64,000 bases of DNA from Micromonospora sp. WMMD1082 (GTDB taxonomy: Bacteria > Actinomycetota > Actinomycetes > Mycobacteriales > Micromonosporaceae), in the NCBI RefSeq assembly GCF_029626175.1, contig NZ_JARUBM010000002.1, positions 2,559,001 to 2,623,000 of the forward strand, given 5' to 3'. Position 1 is the stretch's first letter. Every line of letters begins with the position of its first letter. Made by a program: the position numbers and the translations under genes. Under the pieces are notes generated by a model. The model made no database searches and was not told the origin of the DNA. It saw nothing but the letters and a program-made list of their open reading frames with translations. This document shows, one piece after another, positions 37,405 through 44,615 of the stretch.

Positions 37405-37447
37405 GCGCGCCCGAAGGGACTCGAACCCCTAACCTTCTGATCCGTAG
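37405..37447. repeat. Left attachment repeat (attL), fragment of tRNA-Arg
   Basis: These 43 bp are identical to 44542-44584, the 3' part of tRNA-Arg. After the shared GTAG the two sequences diverge, so this copy is only a tRNA fragment. Confidence 0.92.
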
Positions 37448-37618
37448 GGCGCTAGCGCTCTTGTCAAGCGATGTCGCTCGATGTTGTGCGTATCTCTGAC
37501 ATGCAGGTCAGGAGGTGTCGCAACTGCGGCCGTCTGCCGTCCTTGTATATCTGTTGCCAACGGCCGCGTGAGCAATCGGTGAGCAGCGCAAGTAGGCGGT
37601 CTGACCTGCGTCCCCCGC

Positions 37619-38026: not shown

Positions 38027-38563
38027 CTAGCCGCTGTCACCGGCATGGCGCTGGAAGAGCGCGCCCGAGCCACGATGCGGAAGCGAGACGGTGCGGACGT
38101 GATCGAATCCTAACTGGCGATAATATTCGTGGAGCGCCGGATTTGTGCGCCACGCGTCCAAGCGAAGCCACTTCTTTCCTCGTTTCCTTGCGAGTCGAAG
38201 TGCAAAGTCAACTAGGTTTTCGCCGATGCCCCGGCCGGCGTAGTTACGGGAAACAATCATCCGATGCACGTATAGGGCGTCGCCCGGATCATCCTCATCC
38301 TGCCAGAACTCCGGGTCCGCCAACTCATCGATAATAACAGTCGCAACAATCCGAGAGTCGTCAGTGAGAACGAAGCACTCGCCTCGACCAATCGCATCTG
38401 CAATTCTCTTCTGCATTCGCTCCGGCGTCTGCCTATCGTTGCTCTCTACTGACTGCCACTGGTCAAGGCCACGCGTCGCAAGCCACCGCACAACATCGGA
38501 TTGCAACCGGGCAACAGCAGCAAAATCGGAGGCTTCCGCGACCCGCATGCGGAGAGGGGTCAC
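38027..38563 (-). CDS. GNAT-family N-acetyltransferase
   Basis: Acetyl-CoA-dependent acetyltransferase of 178 residues. The acetyl-CoA loop is NYAGRGIGENL, preceded by the beta strand LYVHRMIVS and followed by ARKRGKKWLRLDAW and LHEYYRQLGFDHV, the usual order of GNAT motifs A and B. Its ATG overlaps the stop of the GntR gene by 4 bp (38560-38563), so they form one operon. The substrate is unknown. GNAT-GntR pairs are common in actinomycete integrative elements. Confidence 0.88.
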   Translation of the reverse strand: MTPLRMRVAEASDFAAVARLQSDVVRWLATRGLDQWQSVESNDRQTPERMQKRIADAIGRGECFVLTDDSRIVATVIIDELADPEFWQDEDDPGDALYVHRMIVSRNYAGRGIGENLVDFALRLARKRGKKWLRLDAWRTNPALHEYYRQLGFDHVRTVSLPHRGSGALFQRHAGDSG

Positions 38564-39339
38564 GAGTCGGCCTGCGCTGGGCGGGTCCGCTCAAAGGCGA
38601 TGACGTGACGGTCGCCCGGCAGCACGTTAAGTACCGTGCGAACCGGCCTTCCTTCGCTCGTGAAGCCAGTGACGACGTGATACGCCACCGGCGTCCCAGG
38701 TGCGAGCGCAAGCCGCCTCGTTTCCTCTGGCGTAGGCATCCGGACGTAGAACTCGTCCAGCGCGCGAACTTGGCGGTAATCGTTTTCCGCGAGCACCTCG
38801 TTAGCGCCGCGCGCGATGTCGTCCGGGCGCATTATTTCCGTGCCCTGCACTAGATCCAGGGGAAAGTAGCTGTCGTTAGTATTGAATGGCTCACCATCCA
38901 GGTAGCGCACCCTCTTGCGGACTACGGTCAGCTCGCCGGCTTCGAGGCGCAGACGATCCTTGACCATTTCAGGTGGGTCGACTATCGACACTTCGATCGT
39001 TTGTCGCGCCTCCCGCCCTTCGGCTGAATGCTGTGCGATGAAACGGTCTGTTTCGAGGTACCTAGGCTGCGGCATAAATTCTTGCTGCGGCCGGTAGTTG
39101 ATTGGCCTTCGATCTCTGACGAAATAGCCACGAGGTCTAGCCGCAATAATCAAACCCTCAGCAACTAGTGCAGTAAGCGCCTGGCGTGCGGTGTTCCGTG
39201 CGACCTGGAACCGTTCGGTCAGCTCCGATTCGGTTGGCAGTCGCGCACCTGGCGGCATCGTGCCATCGCTGATCGCTTGGCGTAACTCCCCTGCAATCTG
39301 CTGCCACACCGGCATCTGCCCTGCCCGCTTGACGCTCAC
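38560..39339 (-). CDS. GntR-family regulator with UTRA domain (KorSA/TraR-like)
   Basis: Repressor of 259 residues. The N-terminal winged helix (WQQIAGELRQAISDGTMPPG, LPTESELTERFQVARNTARQAL) is followed by a C-terminal UTRA ligand domain (EAGELTVVRKRVRYLDGEPF through ERTRPAQADS). Proteins of this type, such as KorSA of pSAM2, repress replication, transfer or excision genes of actinomycete elements. A TAGAC-A-GTCTA palindrome lies 25 bp upstream of the start and could be its own operator. A divergent gene, the sigma-like protein, starts 183 bp away. Confidence 0.9.
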   Translation of the reverse strand: MSVKRAGQMPVWQQIAGELRQAISDGTMPPGARLPTESELTERFQVARNTARQALTALVAEGLIIAARPRGYFVRDRRPINYRPQQEFMPQPRYLETDRFIAQHSAEGREARQTIEVSIVDPPEMVKDRLRLEAGELTVVRKRVRYLDGEPFNTNDSYFPLDLVQGTEIMRPDDIARGANEVLAENDYRQVRALDEFYVRMPTPEETRRLALAPGTPVAYHVVTGFTSEGRPVRTVLNVLPGDRHVIAFERTRPAQADS

Positions 39340-39484: not shown

Positions 39485-39522
39485 CAGTGCACCTGGTCCG
39501 TCCCAGTGCGAGGGAGTCCAAG

Positions 39523-40611
39523 ATGCTGGTCAAGCGTAGCTCGATGCTGCCCGGAAACGGTCGGTCGCTGTCTGAGCTGTCGGGTATGTCCACTGCCGGG
39601 CTGGTGGAGCTGGCCCGTTCGGGTGAGCGAGAGGCGGTGGGGGAGTTGTTCCGCCGGTATGAGCGGCGGGTGTTCCTGTACGCGGTGAGCCGTTGCGACG
39701 GGGACCGGGCGGCGGCGGATGACGTGGCCGCGGAGGTGTGGGTGAAGGTGTTGACCCGGGTCGGGTCGTGGGTGCCGCAGGGCGAGGGCGGTGAGGACGA
39801 CTTCGTGCGGTGGGTGCTCGGGATGGTGCGGGGCACGGTTGGTGAGGTGCGGGCGGCGCGGTGGGCGCAGATGCCGGCGGCGGTGCCGGGCGCGGCGCTG
39901 GACGAGATGGATTGGTTGCTGGCGGACGCCTCGGGTGAGGTCGATGACCTGGATGAGTGCCCGGCGAAGACGGAGATGCTGGCGCGGCTGCGTGCCGAGG
40001 TGCAGCAGTTGTCGCCGCTGTGCCGGTCGGTGGTGCGGCTGCGGATGGACGGGGCGCCGCTGGAGGAGATCACGGCCGCGACGGGGTTGACCCGGCAGCA
40101 GGTCAATGACGCGTGGAAGCGGGCGCAGGTGCGGCTTCGGCGGCGGCTGGTCGGCCGCATCGATGTGGAGTCGTTGAGCGCCGGTGAGCTGGCGGAGCTG
40201 CTGGAGCTGGTCCGGGAGCTGCCGGAGGGCTCGCGGGAGGTCGCGGCGCTGCGGCTGTCTGGGGTGAGTGAGTCGCAGGTCGCTGAGCGGTTGGGCATGA
40301 CCCGGGTGCAGTCGCGTAACGCGTGGCGCTACGCCGAAGACCTGCTGCGCAAGCTTCAAGACGATCCGCAGGCCACCCGTGCGCCGAAGGGCGGCCGGGT
40401 GGCGGTGTGGCAGAAGGAGCGTGACCGGCTGCGGGTCGCGGCGCAGTCGCTGTCCCCGGCGGCGCGACGTGTCGCGCTGCTGCGCCTAGACGGCTTGAGC
40501 TACCCGCGTATCGCCGCGCAGCTCGGCTGCACGCGCAACACGGTCGCCTCCACCTGGAGTCGAGCGCTGGACGCCTTCACCCGGGCGGGTCACCTGCCGA
40601 TGGCTGCCTGA
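39523..40611 (+). CDS. Sigma-70-like protein with three sigma-4-type helix-turn-helix units
   Basis: Protein of 362 residues. Residues ~20-75 resemble sigma region 2 (LVELARSGEREAVGELFRRY, then DDVAAEVWVKVL). Three sigma-4-like units follow, around LSPLCRSVVRLRMDGAPLEE, LPEGSREVAALRLSGVSESQ and LSPAARRVALLRLDGLSYPR, each ending in a helix with an R/K-rich tail. Normal ECF sigma factors have one. The ATG at 39523 has AGGGAG at 39511-39516; an upstream in-frame start at 39487 lacks one. It may be a specialised sigma factor, or a DNA-binding protein built from sigma parts, for example one that binds the repeat modules immediately downstream. That last idea is inference from position. Confidence 0.8.
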   Translation: MLVKRSSMLPGNGRSLSELSGMSTAGLVELARSGEREAVGELFRRYERRVFLYAVSRCDGDRAAADDVAAEVWVKVLTRVGSWVPQGEGGEDDFVRWVLGMVRGTVGEVRAARWAQMPAAVPGAALDEMDWLLADASGEVDDLDECPAKTEMLARLRAEVQQLSPLCRSVVRLRMDGAPLEEITAATGLTRQQVNDAWKRAQVRLRRRLVGRIDVESLSAGELAELLELVRELPEGSREVAALRLSGVSESQVAERLGMTRVQSRNAWRYAEDLLRKLQDDPQATRAPKGGRVAVWQKERDRLRVAAQSLSPAARRVALLRLDGLSYPRIAAQLGCTRNTVASTWSRALDAFTRAGHLPMAA

Positions 40612-41283
40612 GCCGGGCCGCCGACCGGGTGGTCCGACAAGCGGTCACCCTGCACGGTCGCGCCCTGGCGGCGCTGGTTCGTTGACAACTCCACAGCGAG
40701 AGCACCATCCCGGGTGGCCCGACCGACGGCGGGCACGGGCCGCCCTGGTGGGCACGGCAGTACCGGGCCGCGCGGTCATGACGGAGCAAATAGGCCCGGC
40801 TGACGCCGGACTCACTTCCTCCGCAGACCCGCCGACCGTGACCTTGGTGCCCGGGTCTGCGGCCGCCCTGACCTGCTGAACCCCGGTTGCGCTGGTCACT
40901 GAGCGACCGACACGCACTGTGGGTTCAGCCGACCCGCAGACCCGCTCGGACCCGGCGGCCGTGGTCGGTGTCCGCGCTGCACACGGCCGAGATGGTGAAC
41001 CGGTCCACCAGGCAGCAGGCAACCGGGAGCGGACCCGGTGGAGGGGTGGGAGCAAGCGGGGCGAGGCGTCGCGCGTCGACCGGTCGCTGTCCACGCGACG
41101 CCTTGCAGCCGAAGCCGTCGCGGTCGTCTAGCAGTGCTGGACCCACGTCGTCCGGTCGCTACGGAGAGAGTGGGTCCAGCCACTCTTGCCGATGGTGCGT
41201 GCGGCCAGGTGGCGTCGCTACCGGCCGACCACGACGCCTCACCGGCCCAACCATTCCGCCGGCCCAACGCCCCCGGAACTCGC
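40612..41283. other. Non-coding stretch with several inverted repeats
   Basis: No gene is supported. CGCAGACCC occurs near 40820 and 40937 and as its complement near 40853. An 11-bp inverted repeat has arms 41136-41146 and 41170-41180. It may be older, decayed repeat material. Confidence 0.45.
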
Positions 41284-41532
41284 TGAACCATCTCCGCAAC
41301 TCCGCAACTCCGCACCGACCGGCCCTGACCAGCGGAAACACTCTGCGGAGATCAAGCCGAGAGAAGAACCTCCATCTCCGCATCTCCGCACGATCAAGGG
41401 CGGTTGCGGAGATGACCGCCAGTTGCGGAGATCTCCCCGACCACCGAGTACCCATCTCCGCAACTGTTTGCCCAGCTCACAGCCCTGTGTGCGGAGTTGC
41501 GGAGTTGCGGAGATGGTTCAGCCCTCTCCGCA
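41284..41532. repeat. Repeat module I-a (motif CTCCGCA), with 32-bp terminal inverted repeats
   Basis: Perfect 32-bp inverted repeats (41284-41315 and 41489-41520) enclose the module. CTCCGCA starts at 41292, 41300, 41308, 41376, 41384, 41456 and 41526; its complement starts at 41344, 41405, 41424, 41490, 41498 and 41506. Triplets have an 8-bp period. Spacing and orientation match module I-b although the motif differs. Confidence 0.9.
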
Positions 41533-41583
41533 ACAGCGCACCACGACCCGCCGACACCCGCACGGACCCGGAACCCGTCAAAC

Positions 41584-41802
41584 CATCTCGGCATCTCGGC
41601 ATCTCGGCAAAACCGCCTCTTGACCAGGGAAAACACTCTGCCGAGATCTTGCCGATAGACAAACCTCCATCTCGGCATCTCGGCACGATCATGCCGAGAT
41701 GAACCCCGTTTGCCGAGATGCCGAGATAGCTACTTGCTTCATCTCGGCAACTGTTACCGCAGGTCAGAGGCACATTTGCCGAGATGCCGAGATGCCGAGA
41801 TG
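41584..41802. repeat. Repeat module I-b (motif CTCGGCA), with 28-bp terminal inverted repeats
   Basis: Perfect 28-bp inverted repeats (41584-41611 and 41775-41802). CTCGGCA starts at 41587, 41595, 41603, 41671, 41679 and 41743; its complement at 41639, 41692, 41711, 41719, 41777, 41785 and 41793. The first six offsets (0, 8, 16, 52, 84, 92) equal those of I-a and the rest are shifted by exactly 8 bp, with one extra copy. Every copy has G where I-a has C in the fourth motif position. Confidence 0.9.
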
Positions 41803-42014
41803 ATTCCGGCCCTCCCACAAACAGCGCAGCCGGCCACCCAACCCCACCCGGCGGCCCGCTGAGAAGACCTCAGCGACATCGACGTATCCCTTCACACCAC
41901 CCCGACGCAGATCTTGGCTCTACGACCCGCACAGCGACCCGCCCTGTCGACCCTCCACCGCAGACGAACAGCCGCCGCACGACCGGCAGTGACCATCTCG
42001 GCGGGGCCGCCGCC

Positions 42015-42104
42015 GGTCGCGGACGACGCGCGACCGGTCGCGCCGACGCGACCCGACACGCGACCGGCCCGGCCAGCGTCAACACCCCACGGTCGCGGGT
42101 CGCG
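42015..42104. repeat. Repeat module II-a (motif GGTCGCG)
   Basis: Seven copies in order F-R-F-R-R-F-F, starting at 42015, 42029, 42036, 42047, 42059, 42091 and 42098. Two more reverse copies lie at 42164 and 42170. A short conserved scaffold (GGCCAGCGTCAAC) lies between the fifth and sixth copies. Confidence 0.85.
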
Positions 42105-42201
42105 CCCACCACCCCGCCGGCCCGCTCGCGCCGCCTTACCCGCCACACCCCTGGCGGGCTGCCCGCGACCGCGACCACACGACCGAACGCCGCTCGATGC
42201 C

Positions 42202-42299
42202 GGTAGCGCGGCGGGTAGCGGACCGCACCGAGGTAGCGCGAACGCTACCCACCCCGCTACCGGCCCCACCTGCACCAACACCCACCGGTAGCGGTAGCA
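42202..42299. repeat. Repeat module II-b (motif GGTAGCG)
   Basis: Seven copies (F-F-F-R-R-F-F) at 42202, 42214, 42232, 42243, 42255, 42287 and 42293. From the third copy on the offsets are 11, 23, 55 and 61 bp, matching II-a (11, 23, 55, 62). The scaffold reads TGCACCAACACCC. Confidence 0.85.
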
Positions 42300-42447
42300 C
42301 GCCACCTTTCCCAACAGCCCGTAACCGCCTCACAGCATCCCCGGCGACCCACCGCACAGCCGCTGCCAGCACAAACACGCCCGAAATGTCCGCTGACCGA
42401 TACGCGTAGAACGCCCTGAAACGTAACCACCGGTAATCGCGGCCCGA

Positions 42448-42538
42448 TGTAGCGACCCTCCCGCTACAGGTAGCACCACCGCTACACCCACCCGCTACAT
42501 ACCTGGCCAGCACCAACGCCCCGATGTAGCAGGTAGCG
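42448..42538. repeat. Repeat module II-c (motif TGTAGC/GGTAGC)
   Basis: Seven copies (F-R-F-R-R-F-F) at 42448, 42462, 42469, 42480, 42493, 42525 and 42532. Offsets 0, 14, 21, 32, 45, 77, 84 match II-a (0, 14, 21, 32, 44, 76, 83) to 1 bp. The scaffold reads GGCCAGCACCAAC. Two further CGCTAC copies at 42598-42610 precede the xis ribosome site. Confidence 0.85.
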
Positions 42539-42639
42539 CCAACCACCGCCCCACCCCCGAAAACCCGCCCCACACCACCCCCGGCACCCCGCCGGCCCGC
42601 TACCGCTACTCCCCAACCCACCCACCGGAAGGAACCACC

Positions 42640-42966
42640 GTGAGCACCGTCATCCCCTTCCCCGAACGACCCGCACCCGACCACACCACCACTCCCCGAG
42701 GGCGACCCGCCCCCGTCGTGTCCGCCGTCTACACCGTCACCGAAACCGCCGAGATCCTGCGCCTCTCCCTCGGCACCACCTACGCCCTACTCCGCTCCGG
42801 CGACATACCCGCCCTCAAACTCGGCGGCCGATGGGTCATCCCCCGAGGCCGCCTCCATCGCTGGCTCGACGACCTACCCACCGCCAGCGTCGAAGACATC
42901 GACCGCGAACTAGCCGCCATCGAACGCCGCGAGCAACGCCAGCAGCGCCGCCAAGACGGCGCGTAA
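42640..42966 (+). CDS. xis: Excisionase-type DNA-binding protein
   Basis: Protein of 108 residues with a MerR-like helix-turn-helix of the excisionase class: YTVTETAEILRLSLGTTYAL, then LRSGDIPALKLGGRWVIPRG and LHRWLDDL. Such proteins direct the integrase towards excision. The GTG at 42640 follows GGAAGGA. It lies 167 bp upstream of the integrase gene, with half module I-c in the gap, an unusual separation because xis and int often overlap. The C-terminal tail is rich in Glu, Arg and Gln. Confidence 0.9.
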   Translation: MSTVIPFPERPAPDHTTTPRGRPAPVVSAVYTVTETAEILRLSLGTTYALLRSGDIPALKLGGRWVIPRGRLHRWLDDLPTASVEDIDRELAAIERREQRQQRRQDGA

Positions 42967-42971
42967 CCCCT

Positions 42972-43078
42972 TGCCGAGATGAACCCCCATTGCCGAGATC
43001 GCGGCAACCCACCCGCCGCGATCTCGGCACACAAACCCCCAGCTCACAACCCCAACTGCCGAGATGCCGAGACGCAGA
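42972..43078. repeat. Repeat half-module I-c between xis and int (motif CTCGGCA)
   Basis: TGCCGAG at 42972, 42991, 43057 and 43065 and CTCGGCA at 43023. Offsets 0, 19, 51, 85, 93 equal those of the 3' half of module I-b counted from 41692. The flank CCGGCCCTCCCACAA after it is also shared with I-b. It ends about 55 bp before the integrase start. Confidence 0.85.
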
Positions 43079-43133: not shown

Positions 43134-44444
43134 GTGCGAGGCTCCGTCTTCAAGCGCTGCCAGTGCCGCGACGCCAACGGCAAGCGCGTCAAGAGCTGCC
43201 GCAAGCCCCACGGCTCATGGTCGTACACCGTCGATGCCGGCCACGCACCCGCGAGCGGCAAGCGTCGCCAGATCACGCGTGGCGGCTTCAAGACCAAGGG
43301 TGACGCCGAAGAGGCCCTGACGGCCGAGCTGGCGAAGCTCAACGCCGGGACGTGGACCGACGACAAGGGCACCACGGTTGGCGCATGGCTCGATCAGTGG
43401 CTGACGGAGCTGGTCGCCGCCGATCGGGCGGTCAAGACGGTCACCAACTACCGCACGCACGTGCGGGACTGCTGGAAGCCGCAGCTCGGGCACATGCTTC
43501 TGCGGGAGGTGCGGCGCGGCCACATCGAGCGTGTGCTGGCCGCCCTGGCGGCCCCGCTCGACGCTGATCGGCCGAGCGGCAACATCGGGCGGCGGATCAC
43601 CCGCCGGTCGCCTGCCACCGTCGAGAGCTACCGCAAGACCATCCGGGCCGCGCTGGCGGCAGCGCTGCGGCGCGAACTGATCGCGGTGAATCCCGCGCTC
43701 GGCCGGATCGACGCGATCCCCCGGCCAGCGACGAGCACCGACGACGAGCCGGTCATGTGGGAGCCCGAGGACACCGCGCGGTTCTTGGAGCACGTGCTAC
43801 CCGACCGGCTCTCGGCCCTGTACGAGCTGGCCGCGTACGCCGGGCTTCGCCGCGCCGAGCTGTGCGGCCTGCGCTGGTCGGACATCGACTCCGAAGACAC
43901 TCCCGGCCTGACCGTGCGGCTGACCAACATCGCCGTGACGCGCAAGGAGGTTACTCCCGAGCAGGCACGATGCCCGATCTGCGGCGCAGAGCACGTCGGC
44001 CGGCTACTGAAGCCGCCGAAGTCGCGAGCGGGCCGCCGGTGGGTACCGCTCGCCGCGCCCGCGCTGGCCGCGCTCGCTCGGCACCGGGTCGCTCAGCAGG
44101 CAGAGCGCGACCTGTTCGGCGTGGACTACGACGACCACGATCTCGTCTTCTGCCGCCCGGACGGCACGCCGCTGCGGCCCGATCGGGTCACGGTCGAGTT
44201 CGAGCAGCATGTTCGCGCGTGCGGCCTGCCGGTCATCCGGTTGCACGACACGCGGCACGGGGCGTGCTCGCTCATGCTGGCCGGTGGCGTCCCGATCGAG
44301 GTCGTGCAGATGATCCTTGGGCACGCCGGTCCCGAGGTGACCCGTCGGATCTACAAGCACATGCTGCGTAGGGAGACGGCGAAACAGGTCGAGAAGGCGT
44401 CGAAGCTTCTGACCCGTCACAGGCCCAAGCGAAAGGCTTCGTGA
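43134..44444 (+). CDS. int: Tyrosine recombinase (integrase) of the element
   Basis: Site-specific recombinase of 436 residues. The N-terminal part has an unusual CQC...C...H segment (residues ~9-24), then an AP2-like arm-binding domain and a SAM-like core-binding domain (VGAWLDQWLTELV, TVTNYRTHVRDCW). The catalytic domain shows AGLRRAELCGLRWSDID (first Arg), HDTRHGACSLMLAGG (His-x-x-Arg), ILGHAGPEVTRRIYKH (His and the Tyr nucleophile). An insertion ARCPICGAEHVGRL carries a CxxC pair. The GTG at 43134 follows AAAGGA; ATG starts in other frames upstream lack support. It lies next to attR in tRNA-Arg, the normal place for int in tRNA-targeting elements. Confidence 0.95.
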   Translation: MRGSVFKRCQCRDANGKRVKSCRKPHGSWSYTVDAGHAPASGKRRQITRGGFKTKGDAEEALTAELAKLNAGTWTDDKGTTVGAWLDQWLTELVAADRAVKTVTNYRTHVRDCWKPQLGHMLLREVRRGHIERVLAALAAPLDADRPSGNIGRRITRRSPATVESYRKTIRAALAAALRRELIAVNPALGRIDAIPRPATSTDDEPVMWEPEDTARFLEHVLPDRLSALYELAAYAGLRRAELCGLRWSDIDSEDTPGLTVRLTNIAVTRKEVTPEQARCPICGAEHVGRLLKPPKSRAGRRWVPLAAPALAALARHRVAQQAERDLFGVDYDDHDLVFCRPDGTPLRPDRVTVEFEQHVRACGLPVIRLHDTRHGACSLMLAGGVPIEVVQMILGHAGPEVTRRIYKHMLRRETAKQVEKASKLLTRHRPKRKAS

Positions 44445-44501
44445 GCAATCTGTGAGCAGTCGGAGGGTCTGACGATCCCTGCCCGGCCTTCCGGGGAGAG
44501 C

Positions 44502-44541: not shown

Positions 44542-44584
44542 GCGCGCCCGAAGGGACTCGAACCCCTAACCTTCTGATCCGTAG
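44542..44584. repeat. Right attachment repeat (attR) within tRNA-Arg
   Basis: Identical over 43 bp to 37405-37447. It covers the 3' half of tRNA-Arg up to the anticodon loop, the usual crossover region for tRNA-targeting integrases. Confidence 0.92.
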
Positions 44585-44615
44585 TCAGATGCTCTATCCG
44601 TTGAGCTACGGGCGC
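44543..44615 (-). tRNA. tRNA-Arg(ACG)
   Basis: Acceptor GCGCCCG pairs with CGGGCGC. The anticodon loop CTACGGA gives anticodon ACG (read after adenosine deamination for CGN). The T arm has GGTTCGAGTCC. Complete and presumably functional; its 3' half was supplied by the element at integration. Confidence 0.95.

Follow-up and report, generated by a model that had tools for sequence, protein, structure and literature searches.

In the Streptomyces plasmid pWTY27, RepA binds the iteron region, placed at 338-606, in electrophoretic mobility shift assays (EMSA) and footprinting, and the cis-acting transfer locus (clt) spans the final 16 bp of the tra gene together with the 159 bp that follow it, according to the sections of PMC3583192 available to us. 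For the integrated element pSAM2, it is noted in the accessible part of PMC9513070 that no clt was described, and it is asked there whether TraB can move other elements. Staphylococcal plasmids capture two to three oriT mimics of different subtypes, for example pWBG762 for the pWBG749 family; a one-residue specificity switch is reported in the helper's SmpO, and helpers have switched specificity more than once (PMC8136818, in the portion accessible). Here we analyse a window of 64,000 nucleotides from Micromonospora sp. WMMD1082 (contig NZ_JARUBM010000002.1, positions 2,559,001 to 2,623,000), in which a 7.2-kb element is integrated at tRNA-Arg. A 43-bp attachment (att) repeat, equal to the 3' part of tRNA-Arg(ACG), stands at both of its ends, and six repeat arrays, all in one orientation, lie between its sigma-like gene and int in the order I-a, I-b, II-a, II-b, II-c and I-c. 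Comparison with relatives makes it likely that this is an integrative satellite of actinomycete integrative and conjugative elements (AICEs) with a decayed rep gene, carrying the replication origins (oriV) of two helpers and the clt sites of three. It could probably be copied and moved by whichever helper arrives.

As stated in the initial annotation, which was made from the letters of the window, the element appears to lack rep and tra: none was found by an open reading frame scan and tblastn with the rep and tra clusters of relatives. No FtsK_SpoIIIE match lay within it among the matches listed, and it does not encode the combination of Int, Rep and Tra that characterises an AICE. The same annotation had described two modules with conserved spacing, one using CTCCGCA and the other CTCGGCA at every copy. 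This proved correct, with 13 exact CTCCGCA and no CTCGGCA copies in I-a (41292-41532), and 13 exact CTCGGCA and no CTCCGCA copies in I-b (41587-41799). The offsets were also right, at 0, 8, 16, 52, 84 and 92 in both modules, followed by 113, 132, 164, 198, 206 and 214 in I-a and 105, 124, 156, 190, 198 and 206 in I-b, as was the half module I-c; the uniform 8-bp shift corresponds in the alignment to a single insertion in I-a after offset 92. The one extra copy noted for I-b is present (+132), but I-a has an extra copy of its own (+234). CTCGGCA occurs 37 times in the window versus 17 ± 4.7 times in shuffles (0/100 shuffles as high). The count of CTCCGCA over the whole window is ordinary (23, with 9/100 shuffles as high), its clustering being the part not expected by chance. 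No other occurrence of the triple motif was found outside the arrays in the 7.44-Mb host genome. Scaffold-I patterns are confined to the element there, as are all three host-genome matches of the second scaffold described below. A miniature inverted-repeat transposable element or other dispersed repeat, a reading for which the annotation had left room, was therefore rejected for the host genome.

The function of scaffold I is suggested by its position in other elements. A 519-aa protein (L165:10587-12146; no match in a Pfam search) has homologues in 64/354 family genomes, the sample searched for rep and scaffold II; 160 genus genomes were searched for scaffold I. Fifty of the 75 listed places were read, the remainder being partial, duplicate or more distant matches, and 47 of the 50 rep loci were used for the comparison with the motif. 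The three left out encode Rep proteins at ~50% identity, and their arrays carry other motifs. A scaffold-I array was found downstream of rep in all 47 homologues at ≥72% identity, with a gap of 6-39 bp between stop codon and array in 46 of them and of 235 bp in L215. Thirty-five of these arrays hold 6-15 exact CTCCGCA copies and no CTCGGCA, and 12 hold 10-14 CTCGGCA copies and no CTCCGCA; L168 (same array as L216) additionally holds CTCCGGA variants. Mixing of the two versions was seen in 0/47, so that copies do not vary independently, and the spacing recurs in other elements, both of which the initial annotation had anticipated. Two random rep-linked arrays are a median 79% similar, and the window modules are about as similar to them from end to end: over 243-251 compared bases, with the variable base masked, I-a is 83-86% and I-b 77-82% similar to its six best rep-linked arrays. 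The closest to I-a, narrowly, is the origin L185, part of the AICE that also holds L154.

Among characterised proteins, the nearest relative of this Rep is pWTY27 RepA (34-36% identity over ~97%; 34% by tblastn), encoded at 621-2237 on the minus strand of NC_013667.2, where the array is again directly 3' of rep. Because the array follows the rep stop codon in relatives and a RepA homologue is reported to bind such an array, scaffold I is read as a replication-iteron (oriV) type, with I-a and I-b apparently representing two alleles of oriV. Since both versions exist complete and unmixed in other elements, I-a and I-b were most likely acquired separately. There is therefore no need for the ~12 in-place switches of one base inside the window element that were originally proposed.

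Sequence variation in Rep tracks the motif closely. Residue 508 is D in 35/35 CTCCGCA loci and N in 11/12 CTCGGCA loci, the twelfth (L205) having a deletion, and residue 504 is S, N or T in 35/35 of the former and H in 11/12 of the latter. Column mutual information (MI) was 0.82 and 0.70 for residues 508 and 504, respectively, versus 0.33 for the next best of 375 variable columns, and the largest MI in 300 label permutations was 0.44. Mapped onto a tree built from Rep residues 1-440, the motif label is not clustered (353/500 shuffles as low) and needs 11 changes, nine of them forced by well-supported branches. For each residue, eight of nine independent pairs agreed with the motif, none disagreed and one was without difference (sign test p 0.008); one pair of Rep proteins, L206 and L208, differs at 29 aligned positions in total, with 504 and 508 among them. 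The AlphaFold model of Rep is poor overall (mean predicted local distance difference test score 56), notably outside the C-terminal 100 residues, but confident from about residue 421. In this part a helix is followed by two strands, and residues 504 and 508 fall in the predicted loop that connects them, which we interpret as a winged-helix wing. These data argue strongly for a link between Rep and motif in which the initiator and the complete iteron set appear to switch together, at least nine times, and this would explain the set-wise motif change seen in the window.

Three further arrays at 42012-42609, short of which the initial annotation had stopped, belong to a second scaffold. A scaffold-II model built from 16 arrays gave 91 matches, of which 90 were used (one minus-strand match was left out), corresponding to 90 plus-strand modules in 74 loci; 60 regions were fetched beyond the first set, and weaker matches were left unread. 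Scaffold II occurs in 73/354 family genomes. In 51 loci it starts ≤80 bp from the traB stop codon, with exactly one module per locus, two of these loci (L170 and L173) having a short traB piece only. The linked protein usually has ~700-800 aa, and its homologues are often named FtsK in databases. The Pfam FtsK profile gave no match to this TraB; its structural model matches FtsK motor domains (E 4e-14, TM-score 0.37 by query), and by predicted secondary structure its C-terminus looks like a winged helix. Scaffold II, in the position that clt takes in pWTY27, looks like a transfer site of the clt/TRS (TraB recognition sequence) type. Among the window modules, II-b is clearly closest to L169 and II-c to L154, and II-a is closest to L148, narrowly. 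Of the roles first listed for the arrays, replication iterons seem to fit family I and clt/TRS sites the neighbouring second family; Xis/Int arm sites were not supported.

The TraB sequence was compared with the clt motif for 49 of the 51 proteins, L170 and L173 being too short. Residue 707 is D in 28/28 CGCGACC loci and N or S in 14/17 CGCTACC loci (exceptions: L150 D, L169 Q, L175 E); it is S in the single CGCTACA locus, G in 2/2 CCCTACC loci and V in the single CGTTACC locus. The L171 array has six copies of CGCTACC. Many further TraB columns also distinguish the two main motif classes, since these mostly follow the tree. The clt motif changes at least seven times on the tree built from TraB residues 1-640. 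All three independent pairs for CGCGACC agree (p 0.25), and because there are only three, covariation of the TraB C-terminus with the scaffold-II motif is suggestive. Co-evolution with a sequence-specific protein, as the initial annotation had put it, is therefore well supported for Rep and suggested for TraB.

Elements related to the one in the window can carry several clt-type modules. Twenty-three loci are without a linked traB: nine have one scaffold-II module, 12 have two and two have three. Multi-module loci make up 14 of these 23 (Fisher p 1.8e-9), and their motifs always differ within a locus. The traB of L167 and L176 is on the opposite strand, and the surroundings of L151, L162 and L163 are different. 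For nine of the 23 the tRNA ends were mapped, giving element sizes of 7.2-8.8 kb; L084 measures 12.9 kb and L086 ~13.7 kb. FtsK had no match in the tRNA-mapped satellites among the matches listed, in a search that covered only part of the 23 genomes. Ten of the 23 loci (L073-L076, L078, L082, L084-L086 and L132) have a CCGCTAG array just downstream of xis, and the TraB class presumed for this scaffold was not found. Possible helpers may be enriched in the same genomes: among the fetched regions, a traB-linked array was present in 5/9 genomes that have multi-module loci, versus 43/354 overall (p 0.002), and G144, G145, G176, G227 and G244 have multi-module satellites together with traB-linked arrays of a shared motif. 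In conjugative elements, judging from nearness on one contig, the CTCGGCA origin is paired with the clt of L165, L169 and L180, and the CTCCGCA origin with that of L148, L138, L154, L171, L173, L168, L174 and L155. Because the two origin alleles each pair with several clt types, a broad-range satellite would need separate collections of origins and clt sites, and the window element holds both.

Traces of its history remain in the element. Compared with satellite L072, the start of the L072 rep matches 40793-40880, followed by II-a and then by II-c with xis; the L072 module to which II-c aligns is also the one matched by II-b. The window int matches L080 and L009 at 83%. Remnants of a satellite rep N-terminus and of the gene next to it flank I-a and I-b, with modest E-values of 6e-5 to 0.006. 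We infer that the element's own initiator has decayed, that two helper-type origins are now at its place and that II-b was added between older clt modules.

We directly observed the homology of the arrays, their position behind rep or traB, the uniformity of their motifs and the covariation of residues with motifs. A satellite mechanism can be proposed on this basis. The element would supply its own integrase and excisionase and, as far as found, neither a replication initiator nor a TraB translocase. I-a and I-b would each be readable by one specificity class of a helper's pWTY27-RepA-like initiator, and II-a, II-b and II-c each seem to resemble the site of a different helper TraB class. In a cell that also harbours a helper AICE, the helper's Rep would drive replication of the excised satellite from the origin that suits it, and the helper's TraB, acting at the clt of its own class, would pump the satellite in double-stranded form into the next cell. 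Binding by Rep and TraB, and replication and transfer in trans, are presumed at each of these steps. That each array mimics the site of a different helper had been offered as speculation; the idea fits the comparative evidence as regards the arrays, and its functional part is conjectural.

Several results weigh against a helper-dependent satellite. The half module I-c indicates that modules can decay in this element, II-b and II-c are less uniform than II-a, and the TraB-motif relationship has few pairs and the exceptions L150, L169 and L175. BLASTP of TraB (P0003) against pWTY27 TraB aligns scraps only, so that the link between them rests on fold and position. Several multi-module loci share one genome (three in G176, three in G244, two in G144); L160, L166 and L172 are short contigs on which traB possibly lies beyond the end; and the co-residence lists cover fetched regions only, and element-rich genomes may drive the excess. 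The host genome yielded no matching Rep, no scaffold-II array outside the element and, in a search at E 1e-10 without positive control, no matching TraB, so that a fitting helper does not seem to be resident; other FtsK-type genes are present there, with 15 PF01580 matches among the matches listed. Only one case of an element that lacks rep but has two oriV alleles turned up in the 160 genus genomes, possibly a single accident, and the rep-less genus matches in G041 and G109 have only 2-3 tandem copies and no satellite.

Some of these points would suit a scrapheap of AICE fragments recombined at a shared tRNA site, with the arrays as non-functional leftovers: one module is halved, rep and c24 remnants adjoin the arrays, and the element is a mosaic, its int being like that of L080/L009 and its xis like that of L072. 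Exact copies nevertheless fill the scaffold (13 each in I-a and I-b, nine in II-a) while the neighbouring gene remnants are frameshifted, and the modules are not joined to any significant match to the C-terminal codons of rep or traB. The modules also stand head to tail in one orientation, scaffold-II motifs never repeat within a locus, and multi-clt layouts recur in 13 other loci; we regard simple debris as unlikely. Iteron arrays supplied in trans titrate Rep in iteron plasmids, and the arrays could in the same way be decoys or incompatibility sites which sequester the Rep and TraB proteins of rival AICEs and thereby keep these competitors out of the cell. As exclusion predicts, no AICE of these Rep/TraB types was found in the host genome. 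However, genomes with related multi-module satellites hold traB-linked arrays sharing a motif, and the full scaffold spacing and core would not be needed for titration, which leaves this explanation improbable in our view. The arrays would hardly be operators of xis and int to which a regulator of the element itself binds, be it the sigma-like, GntR or Xis protein, the candidates named initially. II-c stops shortly before xis and I-c shortly before int, as such operators might, but the same arrays follow rep or traB elsewhere, and it is the protein sequences of these genes, encoded by other elements, that track the motif; homologues of the sigma-like protein occur in elements with different motifs.

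Of the explanations considered, the satellite carrying several helpers' sites is thus the one we favour. A broader view, which we put forward tentatively, is that AICE replication and transfer specificities may be shifting lock-and-key dialects, kept diverse by parasites: satellites would collect one module per dialect, here two origins and three transfer sites, and initiators would repeatedly flip two wing residues and every iteron, with at least nine supported switches, to escape or shed them. If true, the window element would be an extreme case, its own rep having been replaced by two helper origins. The positions of its modules and genes are given in Table 1.

Table 1 Features of the integrated element in the window (positions are those of the window)
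Feature	Position	Strand	Remarks
attL	37405..37447	.	Exact 43-bp repeat of the tRNA-Arg(ACG) 3' part; repeat comparison
GNAT acetyltransferase	38027..38563	-	Cargo; Pfam
GntR-UTRA regulator	38560..39339	-	Pfam
Protein with sigma-70 region-4 helix-turn-helix (HTH) units	39487..40611	+	Homologues in many related small elements
Remnant of AAA_25 helicase/Rep encoded here in related satellites	40782..41017	+	Frameshifted, N-terminal; pieces within residues 6-126; E 5e-4 to 0.006; blastn to L072, L078
Module I-a	41284..41532	+	oriV-type array, 13 x CTCCGCA
Module I-b	41579..41806	+	oriV-type array, 13 x CTCGGCA
Remnant of small post-rep gene of related satellites	41852..41999	+	Cluster c24; best E 6e-5
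Module II-a	42012..42176	+	clt-type array, CGCGACC
Module II-b	42211..42367	+	clt-type array, CGCTACC; closest to L169 clt, distant TraB clade
Module II-c	42445..42609	+	clt-type array, mostly CGCTACA; closest to L154
xis	42640..42966	+	HTH_17 excisionase
Module I-c	42972..43071	+	3' half of oriV-type array, 5 x CTCGGCA; between xis and int, just 5' of the int GTG start (43134)
Tyrosine integrase (int)	43134..44444	+	85-87% identity to same-tRNA-gene neighbours in Planosporangium, Actinoplanes
tRNA-Arg(ACG)	44542..44615	-	attR = 44542-44584

Other readings of the repeats were tried and set aside. GTGAGCA pairs at 37569-37586 and 44442-44459, near both att sites, are likely integrase arm sites; integrase arm sites are an unlikely role for the arrays, whose motif is another. 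The core CTGACCAGCNNAAACAC has 56 occurrences in 50/354 Micromonosporaceae genomes (0 for the reversed pattern), and it was rejected as a specific ori marker: it was confirmed in 22 of 30 loci inspected, the remaining eight being on the other strand and left unread, and none of the 22 has >5 copies of any 7-mer. At L036 and L039, CTGACCAGCNNAAACAC lies in terminator-like hairpins just after tRNA-like sequence. Copies within the arrays form inverted pairs, and three of five pair measures beat all 500 shuffles while two do not (57/500 as high). A single-stranded or RNA hairpin was dropped because protein recognition explains all copies and pairing does not; L078 and II-c break pairs yet keep the motif. 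The array DNA had no match in plasmid and phage collections, and no exact triple repeats were found in viral contigs.

Related elements provided some additional observations. The multi-unit sigma-70 region-4 protein is present in 14/22 clustered sequences, window included (clusters c2 and c8). Contig C1 of G136 has three CTCCGCA-class replication modules (2469252, 3802748 and 5652653), two of which encode Rep proteins that are identical as far as residue 440, and no CTCGGCA copy was seen in that genome. Upstream of the element in L078 (G062:C1:4221000-4238000), att is found twice, at -5701 and -11432 relative to xis, which suggests two tandem elements in one tRNA-Pro site. Arrays with other motifs were seen in L010, L083, L123, L149 and L153 (CCGTCCC, CCGTACC, GCCGTAC), L082 and L150 (CGTTGAC), L136 (GGTGACA) and L084 and L086 (CGGTAAC). 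They lie near other replication-gene classes (DUF3631, DnaB-DUF3987 and the like), and these classes may have iteron dialects of their own.

These results offer a testable protein-DNA code, in which two Rep residues correspond to a single iteron base and, with less certainty, one TraB residue corresponds to the clt motif, and they supply candidate clt sites for AICEs. In the open-licence literature we found no earlier report of multi-helper site mimicry for double-stranded TraB conjugation or TraB-type satellites, nor of multi-allele replication-origin mimicry. pWTY27 (Streptomyces sp. Y27) shares with the systems described here a RepA homologous to the scaffold-I initiator, iterons directly 3' of repA that contain CTGACCTGC, like the CTGACCAGC core of the window arrays, a primase-polymerase neighbour, and DUF2637 and GntR genes. 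In the available sections of PMC3583192 its clt starts inside the end of the tra gene and has 7-bp repeats. It differs in being a replicating plasmid with its own rep and tra genes, different iteron motifs and, as far as those sections describe, one origin and one clt. The AICEs pSAM2, SLP1, pMEA300 and pMR2 are likewise tRNA-integrated, with Int and an FtsK-like Tra acting on clt, and some replicate by a primase-polymerase type mechanism (PMC3218068, in the part accessible); unlike them, the window element is without rep and tra and has several ori-type and clt-type alleles. From its clt-type modules we infer that it works like an integrative and mobilizable element (IME), mobilised by a helper's conjugation system. 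IMEs too are integrated and depend on the conjugation machinery of another element, and those described in the accessible text of PMC5704250 use relaxases and type IV secretion systems (T4SS), none the double-stranded TraB route. In the portion of the staphylococcal study noted above, a non-conjugative element similarly captures two to three specificity subtypes of its helpers' transfer site, one helper-protein residue switches specificity, and helpers have switched repeatedly. Those are free plasmids moved by single-stranded relaxase/T4SS transfer, whereas double-stranded TraB/clt transfer is presumed for the window element, whose integration site is a tRNA gene and which also has two replication origins of helper type. 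As described there, the staphylococcal oriT mimics are a clear precedent for the principle.

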